Shown here one piece after another: positions 2,327 through 47,673 of a stretch of 64,000 nucleotides of DNA. Numbering within the stretch: the stretch's first letter is position 1; every line of letters starts with the position of its first letter. Both the position numbers and the translations under genes were made by a program. The DNA is from an uncultured Pelagibacteraceae bacterium. Its GTDB lineage: Bacteria; Pseudomonadota; Alphaproteobacteria; Pelagibacterales; Pelagibacteraceae. The stretch covers positions 124,001 through 188,000 of the forward strand of contig CACGXV010000001.1 in assembly GCA_902577075.1 (NCBI GenBank), read 5' to 3'. The notes under the pieces were generated by a model that did not search any database, was not told where the DNA came from, and saw only the letters and a list, made by a program, of their open reading frames with translations.

Positions 2327-3292
2327 GTGTCTAAAAAATCCTTTTTAAATTTAAAACAACTATTTAAAAAAAAAGGTTTTAAATTTAGAGATTTTGAGGT
2401 TAGCTCAATAGGTGATTACTTACCAGATGATGCTGACTGGAATTACAAAGATGTCCATCATTTAAATATAGTTCATAAAACTGTCCATGGTGTTCAAGCT
2501 GTAATGACAGATGATGTGATGTGTAATATAAATCTTCAAAAAATTCCTATACTTGGTTTTGAAATTCCTATGCCACTAATTCAATACGATCACTCAAAAC
2601 ATAATGCTATATATTTATCAGTTCTTGGCCCATATATAGTCCTTATAAACTCTATATTTGAGAAATTTAACGAAACTCAAACTAACGTAATTACTAAATT
2701 CTCAATTGGCTCTAAAGGAATCTTTAGAGTTCTCAACCCTATAATTGAACATCTTTTAAAAAAAAATAATAAAATGTTAATGAATGATGATTTACCTATG
2801 AGAAATAGAAGAGGAGAATTAAGAAAAATTAATCATTTATTTTATAAAAATACAGAAAGATACTCTTTCGAGTTTAGTGAAAATATAGAGCGTGCTAATG
2901 TATTTTTAAATGAAGAAGAAAAAAATATTATAAATATAGAAAAAAAAATAATCCTAGAGGCAAAAGATGGTGACATTGTTGGTAATATCAATGGTGTATT
3001 ATCTTTTTTCGTAACAGTAGACAATGAAGGTGTAAAGAGCGTTTGGCCTACAACTTGTTCGCATGAAGGTGCTAAACTTTCAAATAAATGTTTGAAGACA
3101 AATTTTTTATTGTGTCCATGGCATAATAGAAAAGTAAATTCTTTGTTATCAATTAAAGACGGAAATATAAAAATCAAACCTACTATTCATTACGCAGTAA
3201 AGGTTATGAATGATAAAATTGGATTTAAATACAGAAATGACCCAAAATATTATGAAAACAAACCTTTTGAATATTTAAAATATGACGATTAA
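2327..3292 (+). CDS. Rieske [2Fe-2S] domain protein with an SRPBCC-like N-terminal region
   Basis: This 321-residue protein starts at a GTG (2327); no nearer ATG fits the frame. Near the C-terminus it has the Rieske cluster motif, C244-x-H246 and C263-P-W-H266, which binds a [2Fe-2S] cluster through two Cys and two His. The first 190 residues resemble no enzyme I can name. The order, a catalytic-looking domain before the Rieske domain, is the reverse of the usual ring-hydroxylating oxygenase subunit. It lies between a glycosyltransferase and a methyltransferase, overlapping the latter by 11 nt, so a role in modifying a surface glycan or lipid is possible but only inferred. Confidence 0.65.
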   Translation: MSKKSFLNLKQLFKKKGFKFRDFEVSSIGDYLPDDADWNYKDVHHLNIVHKTVHGVQAVMTDDVMCNINLQKIPILGFEIPMPLIQYDHSKHNAIYLSVLGPYIVLINSIFEKFNETQTNVITKFSIGSKGIFRVLNPIIEHLLKKNNKMLMNDDLPMRNRRGELRKINHLFYKNTERYSFEFSENIERANVFLNEEEKNIINIEKKIILEAKDGDIVGNINGVLSFFVTVDNEGVKSVWPTTCSHEGAKLSNKCLKTNFLLCPWHNRKVNSLLSIKDGNIKIKPTIHYAVKVMNDKIGFKYRNDPKYYENKPFEYLKYDD

Positions 3293-4181
3293 TTTTAAAG
3301 AGAGAAACTGCCCAATTTGCAATAACACTACTACAGATATTTCTGAAATCAATCCTGATATTGATCCAAAAAATGATGCGCAAATAATCAAAAAGTATTG
3401 GTCAGGTTTTTATAAAGAAAATGTTTTTTTTCCTTACTTTAGGTGCAAATGCGGTTTTTTGTTTAACAAAGAATTTCCTGATCAGGACTCACTAAATAAA
3501 CTTTATTCCCACGAAAACGACAATGTAATTCATGGAGATTTAGAATTAGATCTTAAAACAAAACAATTTTATTTAAGACAATTAACTTCCTCCATCAATA
3601 ATTTTGAAAAAAAATATAAATTTTTAGAGGTAGGTGCGGATAATGGAAATTTTTTGAAATTATTAAAGAAAATATATAAAAATTCTGATTTTTATGCCAT
3701 TGAGCCAAATCAAAATATGAAAAAAGATCTAAGCGAAGTGACTAAAAATGTTTTTAGCAATATTGATGAACTAAAAAACGATAGAAAATTTGATATTATA
3801 ATTGGAATTCATGTATTCGATCACATACCAGATTTAAATGATTATTTTAAAAAACTTGATGATCTTTTAAGTTCCTCAGGACTAATATTTGGTGTTGTTC
3901 ATAACGAAAAATCTTTGATGCCTATAATATTTAAAAATAGATGGCCTATATTTAGATTACAACATCCTCATCTATTTAATTATACCTCACTTGATATGTT
4001 TTTTCTAAAATATCATTTTAAAAAAGTTTTCATAAAAAAAACCAAAAATTTTTTTAATATTGGATATTTAATTAATCAATTATTTCTAAGTTTTTTCAAA
4101 TTGAAGATATCACTACCAAACTTGTTTTCCGTAGGCTTAAAATTAGGTAATTTTTGCTTTCTATATAAAAAAAATAGATAA
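3282..4181 (+). CDS. Class I SAM-dependent methyltransferase with N-terminal zinc-binding motif
   Basis: The 299-residue product opens with a paired-cysteine motif (C10-P-I-C13 and C55-K-C57-G), probably a zinc knuckle. A Rossmann methyltransferase core follows, with motif I (LEVGADNGN) near residue 116 and a later HVFDHIPD stretch where motif IV/post-I is expected. This architecture is common among sugar C- or O-methyltransferases of polysaccharide clusters. It overlaps the Rieske gene by 11 nt and ends the plus-strand run; the next genes are on the opposite strand. The methyl acceptor cannot be read from sequence. Confidence 0.75.
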   Translation: MTINFKERNCPICNNTTTDISEINPDIDPKNDAQIIKKYWSGFYKENVFFPYFRCKCGFLFNKEFPDQDSLNKLYSHENDNVIHGDLELDLKTKQFYLRQLTSSINNFEKKYKFLEVGADNGNFLKLLKKIYKNSDFYAIEPNQNMKKDLSEVTKNVFSNIDELKNDRKFDIIIGIHVFDHIPDLNDYFKKLDDLLSSSGLIFGVVHNEKSLMPIIFKNRWPIFRLQHPHLFNYTSLDMFFLKYHFKKVFIKKTKNFFNIGYLINQLFLSFFKLKISLPNLFSVGLKLGNFCFLYKKNR

Positions 4182-4223
4182 CTAATTAAAAATTTCAACC
4201 AATCAATTTGTTATTCTAAGAAT

Positions 4224-4814
4224 TTATTTAATAATAAATTCTTCAAGAGATTTGAAAAGATAATTTATGTCTCCATCATTGTTTTGAATAATTGAATTAA
4301 ATTCTTCCTTTTGTGTTCGAGCTAAACTTAATCCTTCAACGATAAGGTCTCTAATCAAAGGTCGTTCAGGGTTTTTTGTGTAAATTCTCCAGTCAATTTT
4401 TATTTCTGGATTTTTTGATGTCTCCTCTAATACCGTACTTACAATAGTATATTTTTCATTAATTTTTTTCTCAGATACTACTGTTATTTTTGGGTCAGAG
4501 TAGTCAACTAATCTACTAGAAAAACTTTTTAAGAAATAGCTTTTGAATAGTTTTTTATATTTAATTTTTTCATTTTCACTCAAAATTTTTCGATACTTTC
4601 CCAAAGTGTACATTCCGATCCCATCTATATCAACGTTTGTTTCAGCTATATTATTTAGTTTAATTATCTTTGACTCAACAGGATCTGAGCTAGACAATAT
4701 AATTGATGCTTCATTAACTATTTCATCTATTAATTTACTTGGCTCTTTAGCCAGTAGTGAATTAGTAAAAAAAGTAAGTACTAAAAAAAAAATTAAAATT
4801 TTAGATTTTGTCAT
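4224..4814 (-). CDS. mlaC: MlaC-type periplasmic phospholipid-binding protein
   Basis: A 196-residue protein with an N-terminal signal peptide ending near LLAKEP (about residue 22). The rest matches the MlaC/Ttg2D family in length and in the conserved stretches around DIDGIGMYTLGKYRK, YKKLFKSYFLKSFSSRL and IDWRIY. MlaC proteins shuttle phospholipid across the periplasm between outer-membrane MlaA and the inner-membrane MlaFEDB transporter. It follows mlaA on the same strand with a 6-nt gap, so the two form an operon. The rest of the Mla transporter is not in this window. Confidence 0.9.
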   Translation of the reverse strand: MTKSKILIFFLVLTFFTNSLLAKEPSKLIDEIVNEASIILSSSDPVESKIIKLNNIAETNVDIDGIGMYTLGKYRKILSENEKIKYKKLFKSYFLKSFSSRLVDYSDPKITVVSEKKINEKYTIVSTVLEETSKNPEIKIDWRIYTKNPERPLIRDLIVEGLSLARTQKEEFNSIIQNNDGDINYLFKSLEEFIIK

Positions 4815-40655: not shown

Positions 40656-41668
40656 TGATTAAAACTGATGTTGTGATAATTGGTGCAGGACCAACAGGGT
40701 TATTTTGTGCACATCAATTAGGAATCATAGGATTGAAATGTGAAATAGTTGATAACTTAGATAAAATTGGTGGTCAATGTATAGAACTCTATCCAGATAA
40801 ACCAATTTATGATATTCCCGCGGTCCCGGAATGTACTGGTGAAGAGCTTACTAACAATTTAATTAAACAAATAAAACCTTTTAACTTTAACTTTCATTTA
40901 AATGATAGAGTTCAAGAACTAAGACAAGAAAATCAAATCTGGATAGTAAAAACAACTAATGGCAAAGAGTTTAACACACCAAATGTAGTAATTGCTGGGG
41001 GAGTGGGATCTTTTGAACCACGAAAATTTCCAACAAAGAGTGCAGAAAAGTTTGATGGTAAAACAGTTTTATACTCAATTAAAGACAAAAGTATTTTTAA
41101 AGATAAATCAGTAGTCATTTTTGGAGGTGGAGATAGCGCACTTGACTGGGCAATTGAACTGTCAAGTACTTCAAAAGTTTCTCTTATACATAGGAGAGAT
41201 GAGTTTAGAGGCGCACCTGCAAGCGTTCAAAAAATAAAAGAACTTAGTGAAAAAAATAAAATTAATTTATTTACAAAGTACTCAATTAAAGATGTGAAAG
41301 GCAATGGCTCTTTAGAGGAAGTCGAGATTAAAAGCGAAGAAGGAGAAAGCAAAACTCTAAAGGCTGATTATGTTTTAGGTTTCTTTGGTTTAATAATGCA
41401 GCTTGGGCCAATCGCGGAATGGGGACTAAATTTAGATAAAAAAACAATACCGGTTAATACAGAAAATTTTGAAACCAATAAAAAGGGTATTTTTGCTATC
41501 GGCGATATTTGTAATTACCCAGGAAAACTAAAATTAATATTATCTGGTTTTCATGAGGGAGCTTTAGCTGCTAGAGGTTGTTTTAAATATGCAAGACCTA
41601 ATGAGAAATATAGGTTTGAATTTACTACTGCATCTAACACTATTAAAGACAGATTAGGTGTCAAATAA
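40655..41668 (+). CDS. Ferredoxin--NADP+ reductase, thioredoxin-reductase-like type
   Basis: A 337-residue FAD/NADPH flavoprotein. It has the FAD loop VVIIGAGPTGLFCAHQLG, the GGQCIELYPDKPIYDIP stretch typical of TrxR-like ferredoxin reductases, the NADPH loop VVIFGGGDSALDWA and the C-terminal FAIGDICNYPGKLKLILSGFHEGALAA. The redox-active CxxC of thioredoxin reductase is absent, so I assign ferredoxin-NADP reductase. It lies between its likely partner ferredoxin and a glutathione transferase, with one-base overlaps at both ends. Confidence 0.9.
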
Positions 41669-42294
41669 TGATCGAGCTATTTACAGCCGATACTCCTAAT
41701 GGTTGGAAAATTAGTATAATGTTGGAAGAGATAAGCTTTGACTACAAAATTACCAAAGTAAACTTAAATGAAGGTGAACAACATAAAGCTGAATTCAAAA
41801 AAATTAGTCCTTTCAATAAAATACCAGTGATCACTGATCACGAAAATAAAAAGTCAATATTCGAGTCAGGAGCAATATTGATGTACTTGGGTGAAAAAAG
41901 TAAAATGTTTTATCCAGAAAATAATAGATTAGAGATAAATCAGTGGTTGATGGCCCAAATGGGTTTGATTGGTCCAATGATAGGACAGCATCATCAGTTT
42001 CATTATTATCACCAAGGAAAAAGTGAATGGGGAGAGGAAAGATATTTTAAAATAACTAGAAAGTTATACGAAGATTTAGAAGCAAGACTATCAAAAAGTG
42101 ACTTTTTAGCAGGAAAAGAATATTCTATTGCTGATATTGCAACATGGTCATGGATCGCACGTCACAAGAGACATGATATTGGATTAGAAAACTTTAAGGG
42201 GTTATCTAGATGGTTTGTTGATATTGCAAAACGTCCAGCGGTTATCAAAGGATTTAAAGCATTAAATAAAGATGCTGAAATAGACTATCCTTAA
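41668..42294 (+). CDS. Glutathione S-transferase family protein
   Basis: A 208-residue protein with a thioredoxin-like N-terminal domain (ELFTADTPNGWKISIMLEE, NKIPVI, ESGAILMYLGE) and an all-alpha C-terminal domain with the SIADIATWSWI capping box. The GST fold is clear; the N-terminal TPNGWK pattern is like the YghU/YfcG subgroup, which has disulfide reductase activity with glutathione. It is coupled to the reductase gene by a one-base overlap and converges on dksA. Confidence 0.88.
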   Translation: MIELFTADTPNGWKISIMLEEISFDYKITKVNLNEGEQHKAEFKKISPFNKIPVITDHENKKSIFESGAILMYLGEKSKMFYPENNRLEINQWLMAQMGLIGPMIGQHHQFHYYHQGKSEWGEERYFKITRKLYEDLEARLSKSDFLAGKEYSIADIATWSWIARHKRHDIGLENFKGLSRWFVDIAKRPAVIKGFKALNKDAEIDYP

Positions 42295-42743
42295 ATATCA
42301 GCGTAAACTTTTTCTTCTTTTTCATGTTTCTCTTGAGCGGATATGCATAATGTTGCAACTGGCCTTGCCATTAATCTTTTAAGACCAATTGGTTCTGCAG
42401 TTTCCTCACAAAAACCATATGTTCCGTCTTGAATTTTTTTCAAAGCTCCGTCAATTTTTGAAATTAATTTTATTTGTCTGTTGATTGCTCTCATTTCAAC
42501 ATTTTTTTCTGTATATGAACTTGCTTGATCAACAATGTCTGCTGAAGCACTATTGTCATCCATCGAAGCATTAAATATTGCTTCATTATTTGTTCTCTTT
42601 AGATCTTTTTTCCAGTCCATTAATTTTTGTTTAAAATATGCAAGATGTTTTGCACACATGTATTTTTCAGTTTCTTTTGGAATATATTTTTTAGAGATCT
42701 TTACCATACCCAATTTTATAAATCTGGTGAATATATTCATCAT
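42291..42743 (-). CDS. dksA: DksA-family RNA polymerase regulator with degenerate zinc finger
   Basis: DksA binds the secondary channel of RNA polymerase and works with ppGpp. The protein has up to 150 residues, with a coiled-coil (YFKQKLMDWKKDL...) ending in a DNSASADIVDQAS tip. The globular part is IQDGTYGFCEETAEPIGLKRLMARPVATLCISAQEKHEK. Of the four classical zinc cysteines only one of each pair is left (C-E-E-T and C-I-S-A), as in cysteine-poor DksA variants. The start is uncertain: the ATG at 42707 (MVKISKKYIPKE) looks better than the one at 42743. Confidence 0.88.
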   Translation of the reverse strand: MMNIFTRFIKLGMVKISKKYIPKETEKYMCAKHLAYFKQKLMDWKKDLKRTNNEAIFNASMDDNSASADIVDQASSYTEKNVEMRAINRQIKLISKIDGALKKIQDGTYGFCEETAEPIGLKRLMARPVATLCISAQEKHEKEEKVYADI

Positions 42744-42786: not shown

Positions 42787-44082
42787 ATGGCCATTTATAA
42801 AAAAAATATAAACAATATATTTTATATTTTTATCACATCACACTTATTGATCTGGACATTGATTCCAACTTTTACAAATCATAATTTGCCATTAGATACA
42901 ATCGAAGCCTTAGCGTGGGGGAGCAACTTAGATTGGGGATTTAATAAACATCCCCCAATGAGTGCATTTTTACCTGAAATAATTTATTTTATTTTTGGAC
43001 CACAAGATTGGGCGTATTATCTACTAAGTCAAATTTGTATTGTAGTCTCATTCTTTGTAGTTTTTAAGTTAGCTGAAGATTTTTTTGATAACAAAATTTA
43101 TTGTTTACTATCTGTTTTGTTATTAGAAGGAATATACTTCTATAACTTCACTACACCTGAGTTTAATGTAAATGTTTGTTTAATTCCTTTTTGGTCTCTT
43201 TCGGTTTTTTATTTATGGAGAGGAATTAAGAATAATAAAATATTAGATTGGTTATTACTTGGTCTATTTGCTGGACTTGGGTTTATATCTAAGTATTTAT
43301 TTGTCTATTTAGGTTTAGCAATAGATGTACTTTTAATTTACATGATTTATACCAAAAGACTAAATTTTAAGTGTCTAGTTTCTTTCGCTCCTTTTATTAT
43401 TATTTTATTACCACACATTATTTGGTTAACTGATAATGATTATGTAACCATTACTTATGGACTTCTCAGAACTGGGTCAGAAGAGGCAAGTATTTTAAAC
43501 CATATAAAACATCCTACGATATTTTTAGCTAAGCAAGTTGGTATATTATTGCCATTTTTACTAATGATTTTTGTTTTAGTTAAAAAATTTAAAATAAATA
43601 TTAATTTAAACGACGAAAAGCTTTTGTTTGTATTGTCAATTAATTTAATTCCAATATTTTTTATTTTTCTTACATCATTTACTATGGGTGTAAAAATAAG
43701 AACTATGTGGATGACGCCATTTTATATAAGCTTTGGCTTGTTATTTGTTTATATTTTAAAATCAGAAATTAATTTTGAAAAAATGACAGCTTTTACCTCT
43801 GTCTTTTTAGCATTATTCTTATTATCTCCAATTTTATATTCTTATATTTCAATTACTCAAACTGATAAAAGAACTGATTTTGGTGGCAAAAAGTTAGCTG
43901 AGCAGGCCAAACTTTTTTATGAAACTGAGGGTAAGGATCTTGGAAAAATTGAATATATTAAAGGTAATGAATGGATTGCAGGAAATATATCTTACCATCT
44001 TCCAGAAAGACCAAAATGGATTTATAGTTCAAATGAAGTCCAATTGTGCAACAAAGATATGAAATGCTTAACATATAAATGA
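42787..44082 (+). CDS. GT39-type glycosyltransferase (ArnT-like, GT-C fold)
   Basis: A polytopic membrane enzyme of about 431 residues that would transfer a sugar from an undecaprenyl-phosphate donor to a surface lipid or glycan. The ATG at 42787 is chosen over an upstream TTG (42769). The first periplasmic loop has the acidic motif (DTIEALAWGSNLDWGFNKHPP), and a FISKYLFVYLGL segment follows, as in the PMT/ArnT superfamily. About ten transmembrane segments precede a short periplasmic tail. Its stop overlaps the ATG of a 41-residue membrane peptide. The sugar and acceptor are unknown. Confidence 0.82.
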   Translation: MAIYKKNINNIFYIFITSHLLIWTLIPTFTNHNLPLDTIEALAWGSNLDWGFNKHPPMSAFLPEIIYFIFGPQDWAYYLLSQICIVVSFFVVFKLAEDFFDNKIYCLLSVLLLEGIYFYNFTTPEFNVNVCLIPFWSLSVFYLWRGIKNNKILDWLLLGLFAGLGFISKYLFVYLGLAIDVLLIYMIYTKRLNFKCLVSFAPFIIILLPHIIWLTDNDYVTITYGLLRTGSEEASILNHIKHPTIFLAKQVGILLPFLLMIFVLVKKFKININLNDEKLLFVLSINLIPIFFIFLTSFTMGVKIRTMWMTPFYISFGLLFVYILKSEINFEKMTAFTSVFLALFLLSPILYSYISITQTDKRTDFGGKKLAEQAKLFYETEGKDLGKIEYIKGNEWIAGNISYHLPERPKWIYSSNEVQLCNKDMKCLTYK

Positions 44083-44204
44083 AATTTCAATTAAACCAAA
44101 AAAACAAGAGACTTTTATTAATTATTGGAATTGTTGTTTTAATCGAACTCTCGGGATATGGTTTTTTTGCTTCTCTATTTAGATTGATAGGCTCAGTAAG
44201 CTAA
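44079..44204 (+). CDS. Small 41-residue single-pass membrane protein
   Basis: This short frame starts at an ATG overlapping the GT39 stop (ATGA, 44079-44082) and ends in a TAA whose last base opens the next gene's ATG at 44204. Its product (MKFQLNQKNKRLLLII...) has a positively charged N-terminus, a helix of about 20 hydrophobic residues, and a short tail. The exact coupling to both neighbours argues that it is translated. It may be a small subunit of the lipid-linked sugar module, but no homology can be checked. Confidence 0.6.
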   Translation: MKFQLNQKNKRLLLIIGIVVLIELSGYGFFASLFRLIGSVS

Positions 44205-45073
44205 TGAAAATAATAATTCTAATTCCAGTCTTTAATGACTTTAAATCTGCCTCAAAATTAATTAAAGAAATCAATATTAATATTTCTGAGCTTAAAGCAG
44301 AATTTTCAATAATAGTAGTGAATGATACTTCAACAGAGGAAAAAATTTTAGAAACTAAAAATTTAAATAATATTAAATCACTAAAATTAATAAATATGAG
44401 AAATAATAAAGGACATGCACGTTGTATTGCAGCAGGGCTTAAACATATCTCAGAAAATGAAGATTTTGACTATGTAATTCCAATGGATGGAGATGGAGAA
44501 GATAGACCTGAGGAAATAAGAAACTTTGTAGAAAAGATTAAAGATAATCCTAATAATAGCATTGTTGGAGAAAGAGTTAAAAGATCTGAAAGTTTAGTTT
44601 TTAAGGTCTGTTATTTTTTTCACAAAATTATTACTTTTACCTTTACTGGAAAATTTATAAAATTTGGAAATTATACTTGCCTCACAAAAAAAACTGTTAA
44701 AAAATTAATTGAAGACAAAGCAACTTGGAGTAGTTTTTCTGGTTCACTAGCAAAAAATGAGATTAATTTAATTAAATCTCCATCAATAAGAGGCCCAAGA
44801 TACTTTGGCCCATCAAAGATGAGTTTTTTAAATTTGATAAAGCATTCTTTGGCAATAATTGCTGTGTTTAAAACTGGAGTTATCTTTAGATCGATAGCAT
44901 TTTATGCAATATATTTAATAATAATTGCTGAATATATAAGTATAATTACAGCAATACCTCTAGCTATAATCATTATTTTTGGTCTAGTTATATTAAAAAT
45001 CTCAGGTAGAGAAAATATGAATGAGTTTAATAATTCTTTAACAAACATTTCAGACATTGACATTTTAAAATAG
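44204..45073 (+). CDS. GT2 glycosyltransferase, dolichol/undecaprenyl-phosphate sugar transferase type
   Basis: A 289-residue GT-A enzyme with the opening IIILIPVFNDFKSASKLIKEIN and the metal/nucleotide motif VIPMDGDGEDRPEEI. Two transmembrane helices lie near the C-terminus (about 220-270). This layout fits DPM1/ArnC-like enzymes, which load a sugar onto a polyprenyl phosphate for a GT39 partner, and such a partner lies just upstream. The catalytic aspartates are visible; the sugar is not known. Confidence 0.85.
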   Translation: MKIIILIPVFNDFKSASKLIKEININISELKAEFSIIVVNDTSTEEKILETKNLNNIKSLKLINMRNNKGHARCIAAGLKHISENEDFDYVIPMDGDGEDRPEEIRNFVEKIKDNPNNSIVGERVKRSESLVFKVCYFFHKIITFTFTGKFIKFGNYTCLTKKTVKKLIEDKATWSSFSGSLAKNEINLIKSPSIRGPRYFGPSKMSFLNLIKHSLAIIAVFKTGVIFRSIAFYAIYLIIIAEYISIITAIPLAIIIIFGLVILKISGRENMNEFNNSLTNISDIDILK

Positions 45074-45091
45074 TATATTTTAAAATAATTT

Positions 45092-46519
45092 ATGAAAAAT
45101 TTTTATCGTAAAGTAGCATTTGGACTTGGACCAAACGATAAAACACCCTCTGACCCATTAAAATGGGCAACAAATCAACTGAACGATATTCCTGAATTTT
45201 CTTGGAAAGGTAAAATCTTACCAGAGAAAGAACTTAGAAAGTATTACGGAGAATGGGTCTATGGCGATAGAAAAGTATTAAGAAAAAAATTTAAAAAAGA
45301 CAAAGATGGCTACAAAAGAGAAAAAAATAAGTTAAGGCATGCGACTGGACAAAAATTTTGGTGGAACCTTGAACTTTGTATAAGGTATTCAGAAGCATTA
45401 AAAAGTGAAACACCAGTTTTAGCAAAACTTTGGTACTTTTGGGGTAATCATTTCGCAATCAGTGAAAAGGATTTTTTAGCAAAGTATACAACTGGCGCTT
45501 ACCAAAGAGAGATAATTAGAGCTAACATGAATCAAAATTTTGAAAAAATGGCTCAAGAGGCAACCATTGGTTGGTCGATGATACATCACTTAGATAATGA
45601 ACAGAACATAGGACCTAAGAGTCAAGAAGCTAGATGGGCAAGAGAGAAAGGAAAAACAAAAGGTGTAAATGAAAATCATGCAAGGGAACTTCTAGAACTT
45701 CACACCGTTTCTCCAGATTGTGGATACACCCAAGAAGATGTAATTCAGATGGCATATATAATGAGTGGATGGAGACCCAAATGGGGAAAGAAAAGACTTG
45801 AGACTGGCGATGTCCACTTCAACCCTGATGCGCATGAGCCTGGTACTAAAACAGTTTTGGGTAAAAAATATAAAAGAGGTAGAAAAAGTTTATCTGTTGC
45901 AATTACAGATCTTGTTAATCACCCTTCTTGTAGAAAATTTATTGCAATGAAACTCTGTAGATATTTAATTACAGATAACCCAACTGAAGAAATGATAGAA
46001 CCAATTATAAAAGCTTGGGAAAAATCAGACGGTTTTTTACCAGATGTTCATAAAGCTGCAATAGAGGTTGCTTTCAATTATTCTGATAAATATAATAAAT
46101 TTCAGAATCCAGAAAACTGGCTTTTGCAAATGAGCAAAATGGCTGATGTTGATTTAATTCCATCCCCTGCGTTTATGGATCTTTATAAACTTGGAAATAA
46201 ACCGATTAAGGATCAAAGAGCTTTAGAAAGGTTGATGGATGAGCTTGGACAACATCCTTATTTAGCAAAACAACCAAATGGATGGTCAGATATTTCAGAG
46301 GATTGGATGTCGCCAGAACTGCTAATAAGAAGACTGGTCTATGCAAGAGAAGCTTATTATAAAAAGTCAGGCAAGTCACAGACAACAGAATTTTATGAAG
46401 AAATGATTGAAAAAAATTATGATAATCCAAGAGAAATCTTACAAATTATAAATCAGCATAAAGAACTTGTTCATAAACATGTTATTTTATTTAATTTACC
46501 GGAGACGCTTAAATCATGA
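45092..46519 (+). CDS. DUF1800 family protein
   Basis: A 475-residue protein of the DUF1800 family. The family hallmarks are present: the AFGLGPN opening, KLWYFWGNHFAIS, REIIRANMNQNFEKMAQEATIG and MSGWRPKWG. The NENHARELLELHTVSPDCGYTQEDVIQMA stretch is the most diagnostic. The function is unknown, but these genes are almost always next to DUF1501 partners, as here (4-nt overlap with the gene at 46516). No signal peptide is evident at the N-terminus. Confidence 0.85.
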   Translation: MKNFYRKVAFGLGPNDKTPSDPLKWATNQLNDIPEFSWKGKILPEKELRKYYGEWVYGDRKVLRKKFKKDKDGYKREKNKLRHATGQKFWWNLELCIRYSEALKSETPVLAKLWYFWGNHFAISEKDFLAKYTTGAYQREIIRANMNQNFEKMAQEATIGWSMIHHLDNEQNIGPKSQEARWAREKGKTKGVNENHARELLELHTVSPDCGYTQEDVIQMAYIMSGWRPKWGKKRLETGDVHFNPDAHEPGTKTVLGKKYKRGRKSLSVAITDLVNHPSCRKFIAMKLCRYLITDNPTEEMIEPIIKAWEKSDGFLPDVHKAAIEVAFNYSDKYNKFQNPENWLLQMSKMADVDLIPSPAFMDLYKLGNKPIKDQRALERLMDELGQHPYLAKQPNGWSDISEDWMSPELLIRRLVYAREAYYKKSGKSQTTEFYEEMIEKNYDNPREILQIINQHKELVHKHVILFNLPETLKS

Positions 46520-47673
46520 AGATATCAAGAAGAAATTTTTTAAAAGGGTCAGCCACTACGCTATTTTTGGCTGGTTTTAATTTTCCAGCTTTAGCAAATA
46601 CAGAAAAGAAAAAAAATCTTGTAGTTATAATGTTAAGAGGTGGAATGGATGGTTTGTGTGCTGTTCCAATAATTGGAGATAAGAATTTTGAGAAAAGAAG
46701 AAAAGATTTGATTTTAGATGAAATAATAAAGTTAAATTCCGATTTTGCGCTTCATCCTAAACTAAAAAATTTTCATAATTTGTGGCAAAACGATCTTGGA
46801 GCAATAGTTCATGCAACAAATATTCCATATACTAAAAGATCCCATTTTGATGGACAAAACTTAATGGAAACAGGAGGTCATATACCTTACTCAATAAAAA
46901 CTGGCTGGTTAGGAAGAGGAATGAAGTTAGCAGAATTGAAAGGTGATGGTCTTGCATTGGCATTACCAATGCCTTTACTTCTTAGAGGAATTCCTAGTAA
47001 TGATAATTTTTATCCTTCAAAAAAAAGACTTCCAAGAACAGAACTTTTACAACTTTTAAAATCAGTTTATGTAGATAAATCTGAACATGACTTAGCAAAT
47101 ATGATGGAGATAATTGCTAACAGATCTATGATGAATAATGGAGGCACCTCTATGTCTAGAAAGAATTCATCATTAGCCTATAAAGCAGGTTTAGAACTAA
47201 AAAAAATAAATGGTCCAAGGGTTGCAGTTTTTGAAGTTGATGGATTTGATACGCATGCTGCACAGGGTGGAGTGGATGGTTCACATTCAGATAGTTTGAT
47301 TGAAATGGACTCAATTTTTAAAAGTCTAGAGAAAGGTCTAGGATCAGAGATAGAAAATACTCTAGTTTTAACTTTAACAGAATTTGGAAGAACAATTAAA
47401 CAAAATGGAGGTCGTGGAACAGAGCATGGTTATGGATCTGCAATTTTTATGGCAGGTGGTCTTTTAAAAAAATCTCAAGTTTATACAGACTGGCCAGGAC
47501 TTAAGAGAAAAGAATTATTTGAGGGAAGAGATTTGAATTCTACAATTGATGCTAGATCTGTCTATGCATCAGCTATGTCTACAGTTTTTGATATAGACTT
47601 TAAAAGAATTCAAAAAGAAGTTTTCTGGGGAGATAAACTACAAAATTTATCTGACAAATTATTTAGAACTTAA
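46516..47673 (+). CDS. DUF1501 family protein with Tat signal
   Basis: A 385-residue DUF1501 protein. It begins with a twin-arginine signal (SRRNFLKGSATTLFLAG, ending near ALA), so it is exported folded. The mature part has VVIMLRGGMDGLCAVP, AIVHATNIPYTKRSHFDGQNLMETG, LTEFGRTIKQNGGRGTEHGYGSA and related stretches of the family, which is distantly like alkaline phosphatase/sulfatase enzymes. It overlaps the DUF1800 gene, and the two probably work together outside the cytoplasm. The reaction is not known. Confidence 0.85.
   Translation: MKISRRNFLKGSATTLFLAGFNFPALANTEKKKNLVVIMLRGGMDGLCAVPIIGDKNFEKRRKDLILDEIIKLNSDFALHPKLKNFHNLWQNDLGAIVHATNIPYTKRSHFDGQNLMETGGHIPYSIKTGWLGRGMKLAELKGDGLALALPMPLLLRGIPSNDNFYPSKKRLPRTELLQLLKSVYVDKSEHDLANMMEIIANRSMMNNGGTSMSRKNSSLAYKAGLELKKINGPRVAVFEVDGFDTHAAQGGVDGSHSDSLIEMDSIFKSLEKGLGSEIENTLVLTLTEFGRTIKQNGGRGTEHGYGSAIFMAGGLLKKSQVYTDWPGLKRKELFEGRDLNSTIDARSVYASAMSTVFDIDFKRIQKEVFWGDKLQNLSDKLFRT

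Follow-up and report, generated by a model that had tools for sequence, protein, structure and literature searches.

We report that a 41-residue open reading frame (ORF) between two glycosyltransferase genes of a SAR11 bacterium is a real gene, strongly selected as a protein, and that its product is a conserved, so far unclassified single-span mini membrane protein of SAR11. The gene lies in a 64,000-nucleotide stretch of contig CACGXV010000001.1 (the window), from an uncultured Pelagibacteraceae genome of 1.36 Mb (G000). It is not tied to one operon, and the glycosyltransferase pair beside it does not require its presence. SAR11 genomes are streamlined, and the envelope sugars of these bacteria are little known. 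In view of this streamlining, and of selection no weaker than that on the neighboring enzymes, a gene of 31 to 42 residues and of no known family is probably useful in many lineages. The interest of the mini-protein lies in the strength of this selection together with its changes of place, and the peptide offers a sharp target for SAR11 membrane proteomics.

Coding potential and sequence of the small ORF

Table 1. Features of the window around the small ORF
Feature	Coordinates	Strand	Evidence or remark
GST-like gene	41668..42294	+	Best NCBIfam match PRK13972, below its cut-off
dksA-like gene	42291..42743	-	TIGR02420 above cut-off; precedes the small ORF in the most frequent alternative gene order
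GT39-type membrane glycosyltransferase, 431 aa, ArnT-like GT-C fold (predicted)	42787..44082	+	Pfam PF13231 PMT_2, 1.1e-29
ATGA, small-ORF start over GT39 stop	44079..44082	+	Sequence; position relative to GT39 kept in close clade
Small ORF, 41 aa, single-span membrane protein (predicted)	44079..44204	+	Translation, conserved frame, dN/dS
Likely membrane span, top hydrophobic 19-residue stretch, residues 12-30	44112..44168	+	Kyte-Doolittle mean 2.33
Core motif I22-E23-x-S25-G26-x-G28	44142..44162	+	Named residues invariant in 31/31 rows of alignment A3
TAATG, small-ORF stop over GT2 start	44202..44206	+	Sequence; alike in most of close clade
GT2 glycosyltransferase, 289 aa, ArnC/GtrB-like	44204..45073	+	PF00535, 1.5e-14

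The original prediction described a 41-residue ORF coupled at both ends to glycosyltransferase genes, and its coordinates and the ATGA and TAATG overlaps proved exact in the sequence (Table 1). The GT39 stop codon TGA (44080-44082) lies within the ATGA of the small ORF, and the last A of the small-ORF TAA (44202-44204) is common to the ATG of the GT2 ORF. The translated product of 44079-44204 on the forward strand is MKFQLNQKNKRLLLIIGIVVLIELSGYGFFASLFRLIGSVS. A 40-codon frame was open by chance in about 4% of cases in a Markov-1 simulation of the AT-rich background; such a length is thus not rare, and the double overlap alone is only suggestive. It was conservation in relatives that led us to accept the ORF as a real gene.

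Among loci L031-L080, which include near-identical loci, the motif core was in frame in 50 of 50, and the full frame was kept in 49 of 50. In the exception, L064, a T run is shorter by one base, and the tail is thereby shifted. Stops or frameshifts in close relatives, the sign that the original prediction had named against the gene, were therefore confined to this one locus. The ORF lay close upstream of GT2 in 103 of the first 110 loci; these were drawn from two collections, include near-identical sequences, and do not count as 110 independent observations. Among the seven exceptions, several have the ORF elsewhere, and L009 is a piece of GT2 that lacks upstream DNA.

Synonymous and nonsynonymous changes were compared in 46 loci with a GT2 identity of at least 80%, retained after seven had been skipped for a stop in the GT39 slice of fixed length, and after further filters that also removed loci such as L064. 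Each of the other five frames was closed throughout (0/46 open), variable columns at codon positions 1, 2, and 3 numbered 17, 5, and 34 of 39 each, and the pooled dN/dS of the peptide was 0.063. For the first 20 loci in common, dN/dS was 0.075 for the peptide versus 0.109 for GT2 and 0.121 for GT39 (values without error bars). By these values, purifying selection on the peptide is at least as strong as that on both flanking enzymes. With the frame kept and dN/dS at 0.06-0.07, the comparison with relatives that had been proposed as a check came out in favor of a gene, and a chance ORF is ruled out by this conservation and by the closed alternative frames.

The start and stop overlaps in the window's clade would also suit a translation-coupling spacer or leader in which the peptide sequence is irrelevant. 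This explanation is close to refuted, since the amino acids are conserved while synonymous change is free and since the same protein occurs elsewhere without GT2 behind it.

Peptides of the family measure 31-42 residues and share a layout, in which a basic N terminus is followed by a hydrophobic stretch containing the motif and then by a short tail with a mostly conserved R/K. The one transmembrane helix originally claimed agrees with the single hydrophobic span predicted here. In the AF2 model (mean pLDDT 78, pTM 0.39), the peptide forms helices at residues 7-25 and 27-40 with a break at G26. The window's own genome has one clear copy of the ORF; a second match (E 0.066) was partial and lay inside a 168-aa frame.

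Distribution and homology searches

Of 115 near-complete genomes from the genus, 91 had the ORF; the set consisted of 113 genomes with a completeness of 90% or more and a contamination of 5% or less, plus two others, including that of the window at 89.5%. The nearest GT2 sequences on named contigs are from Pelagibacteraceae. Eight genomes of the sister genus carry the ORF, among the matches listed, and an order-wide search found it in 77 of 148 genomes, in two of nine genera. The rest of the class gave no convincing homologue: an A3 search of 387 genomes produced two clear matches, both in the genus, and an A1 search of the class produced matches in 3 of 385 genomes, one of which was partial, lay inside a longer frame, and was taken as chance. 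Four partial A3 matches with E values of 0.006-0.009, inside 67-189-aa frames of the 387 class genomes, were also taken as chance. As far as searched, the family appears to be restricted to one bacterial family (two genera).

The window peptide matched no Pfam family, the best value among 31 rows being E 0.047, to YobH. The best NCBIfam match (0.0027), which fell far short of the cut-off, was to a mycoplasma family of 248 aa, and the best PHROGs match (0.0035) was to an unnamed family; both were taken as chance. A profile search of PDB chains to E 10, in which so short a profile has little power, returned only four xanthan lyase sequences (E 1.4). The accessible portions of the literature on SAR11/Pelagibacter small proteins and on glycosyltransferase small subunits do not name the ORF, which may still be listed elsewhere. 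The main text of the GMSC paper, in the part available, makes no mention of Pelagibacter or SAR11 (PMC11364881).

The ORF occupies several genomic places

The ORF lies just behind GT39 on the same strand, as in the window, in 32 of the 91 genomes and does not in the other 59. In most of the latter, it is encoded on the opposite strand with a dksA-like or GST-like gene next to it (56 of 91; 4 with inserted genes and 1 at a contig end). In 51 genomes, the ORF and GT39 were on opposite strands, with the ORF 589-767 bases upstream. Where the gene order was read (21 of the 51), dksA stood between the ORF and GT39 in 21 of 21, and the GST gene, a convergent neighbor of the ORF in this arrangement, was its other neighbor in 19 of 21, the two remaining loci having no GST match on that side. 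G062, G485, G543, and G579 have the GST neighbor of the dksA type with genes inserted, and G502 has a dksA/GST-type place at a contig end. At L172, L173, L200, L201, and L202, the ORF is accompanied by inserted gene sets that vary from case to case and lie between the GST-like gene and the side with dksA and GT39.

The ORF is elsewhere or unplaced in 3 of the 91 genomes. It lies behind carB, about 62 kb from GT39, in G487; adjoins a thioesterase gene, with GT39 on a different contig, in G533; and is on a different contig from GT39 in G520. Less complete genomes gave further examples. In G025, the ORF (L168, 3946-4047) shares bases with the stop codon of a DctM/DUF3394 TRAP-transporter gene and adjoins a thioesterase gene, so that overlap with a preceding stop has arisen at a second location as well; in G071 and G090, it lies near carB-like genes, named by likeness to L199. 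All eight sister-genus genomes with the ORF have it in a nadA neighborhood (NadA was tested in L192, the others being assigned by likeness). In seven of these eight loci (L190 and L192-L197, near 3870-4260), it lies about 14 bases behind tRNA-Leu(gag), and in L191 the tRNA-Leu is about 3 kb away. All eight genomes also have GT39, seven of them on the same contig at a distance of about 8 kb.

Exact overlap at both ends is characteristic of the window's own clade. In clade L081-L110, the order is kept, with the ORF starting 2 bases after the GT39 stop and ending 4 before GT2. The order GT39-small ORF-GT2 recurs on several deep branches, in relatives whose GT2 identity falls to about 55%, and may thus be old in the genus. 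Where the block is interrupted, the ORF stays with GT39 in one case (G066/L160) and with GT2 in the other (G023/L159). At L159, a 227-aa phospholipid-methyltransferase-like ORF (3192-3875; PEMT, 2e-6) lies between GT39 and the small ORF, and the GT39 of G023 is split over two contigs.

Locations were compared on a FastTree tree of GT39 and GT2 (88 rows; root unsure), for which 33 location labels were set by hand. Location was clustered, with 12 changes in 88 rows versus 41.5 with shuffled labels; these counts are rough, some of the hand-set labels lying outside the rows of the tree and some rows labeled as lacking the ORF being incomplete (L030). The window's arrangement appeared in several deep branches (4 changes), the dksA arrangement was found mainly in one clade, and absence was scattered. 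The double coupling put forward in the original prediction thus stands as an exact feature of the window's clade and fails as a rule of the family. The other locations rule out an obligate operon partner, and because the same gene lies elsewhere in relatives, the double overlap in one genome does not on its own point to a committed one.

A selfish or toxin-like hydrophobic peptide, in the style of a type I toxin and changing its place, would share with this family the small size, the one hydrophobic span, the several places and repeated losses, and a position just behind a tRNA gene in the sister genus. We consider this very unlikely: one clear copy per genome, in two genera of one family and with low dN/dS, argues against it, as do the clustering of location on the tree and the overlap with both neighbors in the window. 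Nine pattern matches to viral contigs included no confirmed case, and phage records gave no match.

Absence of the ORF and evolutionary rates of the flanking enzymes

Among the 115 genomes, 90 had GT39 and the ORF, 15 had GT39 only, 1 had the ORF only (G502, where the sequence stops at a contig end), and 9 had neither. In three of the GT39-only genomes (G535, G560, and G569), the locus stops within the block; these loci and that of G004 were read as contig ends. Of the nine genomes with neither gene, eight are also without the neighboring GST gene, and the other is cut off by a contig break. Absence of the whole block, or gaps in the assembly, account for these double absences. Co-occurrence therefore cannot decide function, and we dropped it as proof.

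Thirteen genomes of the genus (G012, G082, G397, G580, G491, G517, G548, G540, G578, G049, G059, G008, and G057) keep the gene series TrxR-like, GST, dksA, GT39, and GT2 but have no ORF in it, and none of them is among the genome-wide ORF matches. The first four are single-contig genomes. These observations demonstrate that the ORF is not essential to the pair. In a third genus, G198 and G475 have GT39 and GT2, and the ORF is absent.

No overall rate shift of GT39 and GT2 was detected in the rows without the ORF (13 versus 40 rows; p = 0.16, by a statistic that ignores kinship), and a shift after ORF loss was rejected. Loci L232, L233, L234, L239, L240, and L241, which lack the ORF, were faster; the other seven were not. 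The comparison used 53 of 62 rows (61 loci and the window), those dropped for incomplete or missing genes being L235, L238, L243, and L244, from genomes without the ORF, and L245, L257, L260, L277, and L285. GT39 looks broken or split, possibly through assembly error, in G545, G636, G093, and G023, in which the ORF is intact. At L288, L289, and L124 (in G636, G545, and G093), the GT39 matches are split across frames beside an intact small ORF. The ORF is also present in G090 (68% complete), where neither GT39 nor GT2 gave a match.

The peptide could be a stand-alone small membrane protein with another partner, such as a transporter or a respiratory or other inner-membrane complex. The vicinity of GT39 and GT2 would then be inherited local gene order, and coupling to GT39 would only provide expression in some lineages. 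We regard this as a serious possibility. The ORF occupies at least five kinds of place (GT39/GT2, GST/dksA, TRAP-transporter or thioesterase, carB, and tRNA-Leu next to nadA), and selection persists across them: motif-core dN/dS in four groups at different genome places was 0.070, 0.033, 0.138 (23 dksA-type loci), and 0.059 (8 sister-genus loci), with 50/50, 30/30, 23/23, and 8/8 rows passing the motif filter. The 13 genomes with both glycosyltransferase genes and no ORF, the intact ORF beside a broken-looking GT39, and the steady overall rates of both enzymes on loss point the same way. However, no other partner recurs at all places, and in 88 of the 91 genomes the ORF follows GT39, is no more than about 8 kb away from it, or has the same neighbors at the end of a contig.

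A putative accessory subunit of a lipid-linked sugar pathway

The AF2 model of GT39, only fair in quality (pLDDT 61), aligned with ArnT (5f15, with Und-P) over 317 residues at 4.0 Å (VIA-align Z 18.4), the next nearest structures being Pmt4 and OST Stt3. The best Foldseek E value was 1.2e-3, with none under 0.001, and a PDB sequence search with GT39 found no ArnT. Judged by its model, which has the GT-C fold, this neighbor looks like an ArnT-fold enzyme. The best solved relatives of GT2 are ArnC (9hwj, 6.1e-13) and GtrB sll0501 (5ekp), and its C-terminal hydrophobic stretches lie between residues 215 and 263; in NCBIfam, equivalog cut-offs were not reached. With a GT2 domain followed by probable C-terminal membrane helices, it looks like an ArnC/GtrB-type enzyme. 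Together, the two look like a system for loading sugar on undecaprenyl phosphate and then transferring it outside. The window's genome, 89.5% complete, contained no GtrA flippase (0/1; controls 8/14). Behind GT2, positions 45092-47673 of the window hold a gene of DUF1800 and one of DUF1501, and the start of the DUF1501 product is twin-arginine-like.

Our best explanation, held tentatively, is that the peptide may be a small accessory subunit of this lipid-linked sugar pathway, working like Ost4 or Dpm2. The small ORF would make a one-span inner-membrane protein. Undecaprenyl phosphate would receive a sugar through the ArnC/GtrB-like GT2, and transfer of that sugar at the outer face would fall to the ArnT-fold GT39. 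The kinked helix (E23, S25-G26-x-G28) would pack against GT39 or GT2, stabilizing or tuning the enzyme, and in the window's arrangement the placement would allow joint production of all three products. We infer the translation of the peptide, its membrane insertion, its binding to GT39 or GT2, and its effect on activity. A role as subunit or regulator, as originally proposed, is plausible for a real, selected, one-span product usually encoded near GT39/GT2; the double coupling from which it had been argued is not general.

An accessory subunit is favored by selection at least equal to that on the neighbors and by the order GT39-small ORF-GT2 in several deep branches, as well as by the ORF staying with GT39 in the split block of L160 and with GT2 in that of L159. 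It is further favored by the presence of GT39 in the eight sister-genus genomes with the ORF, by the likeness of GT2 to ArnC/GtrB and of the GT39 model to ArnT, Pmt4, and Stt3, and by the predicted helix break at G26, Ost4 being a kinked helix. It is weakened by the other places (59 of 91 genomes not behind GT39; about 62 kb in G487; the TRAP, carB, tRNA-Leu, and thioesterase neighborhoods), by G012, G082, G397, and G580, which keep GT39 without the ORF, and by the lack of an overall rate difference in GT39 and GT2 without the ORF, joint absence being confounded. The intact ORF with a seemingly broken GT39 in G545, G636, G093, and G023 and the ORF of G090 without either enzyme weaken it as well. 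An accessory subunit and a stand-alone protein remain close to each other as explanations.

Comparison with known systems

The ArnC-ArnE/F-ArnT and GtrA-GtrB systems resemble the window in that its GT2 is nearest ArnC/GtrB and its GT39 model is nearest ArnT. The flippases ArnE/F and GtrA are four-span proteins of about 110-120 aa. A GtrA or ArnE/F-type lipid-sugar flippase was rejected as an identity for the peptide, which has 41 residues and one span versus four. In size and single span, the peptide is like the small membrane subunits or regulators CcoM, CydX, KdpF, and PmrR, but it had no convincing match in Pfam, NCBIfam, or PDB.

Dpm2 and Dpm3, as described in the available part of a report on them, are small membrane proteins that serve Dpm1, a GT2 polyprenyl-phosphate-sugar synthase (PMC7728079). 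The window has a small membrane protein and a partner of this type. However, the window peptide has no Pfam match, and the window GT2 has C-terminal hydrophobic stretches of its own.

Ost4 of the oligosaccharyltransferase is, in the part of the source available, a tiny membrane protein whose kinked helix is tightly bound to Stt3 (PMC7226087). Ost4 had no sequence match to the peptide in the PDB profile search, in which the short profile has little power. It is moreover a demonstrated subunit, whereas the peptide is a putative one, and 13 genomes have the glycosyltransferase pair without the gene. The two are alike in being tiny membrane proteins beside a GT-C fold transferase, and the break at G26 in the AF2 model of the peptide may correspond to the kink of Ost4. 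The more specific proposal, that SAR11 has a family-specific mini-subunit of Ost4 type serving an undecaprenyl-phosphate sugar transferase, we regard as rather unlikely. If true, it would mean that in a bacterial group among the most abundant in the ocean, a GT-C enzyme has a separate one-helix partner, mobile in the genome yet strongly selected.
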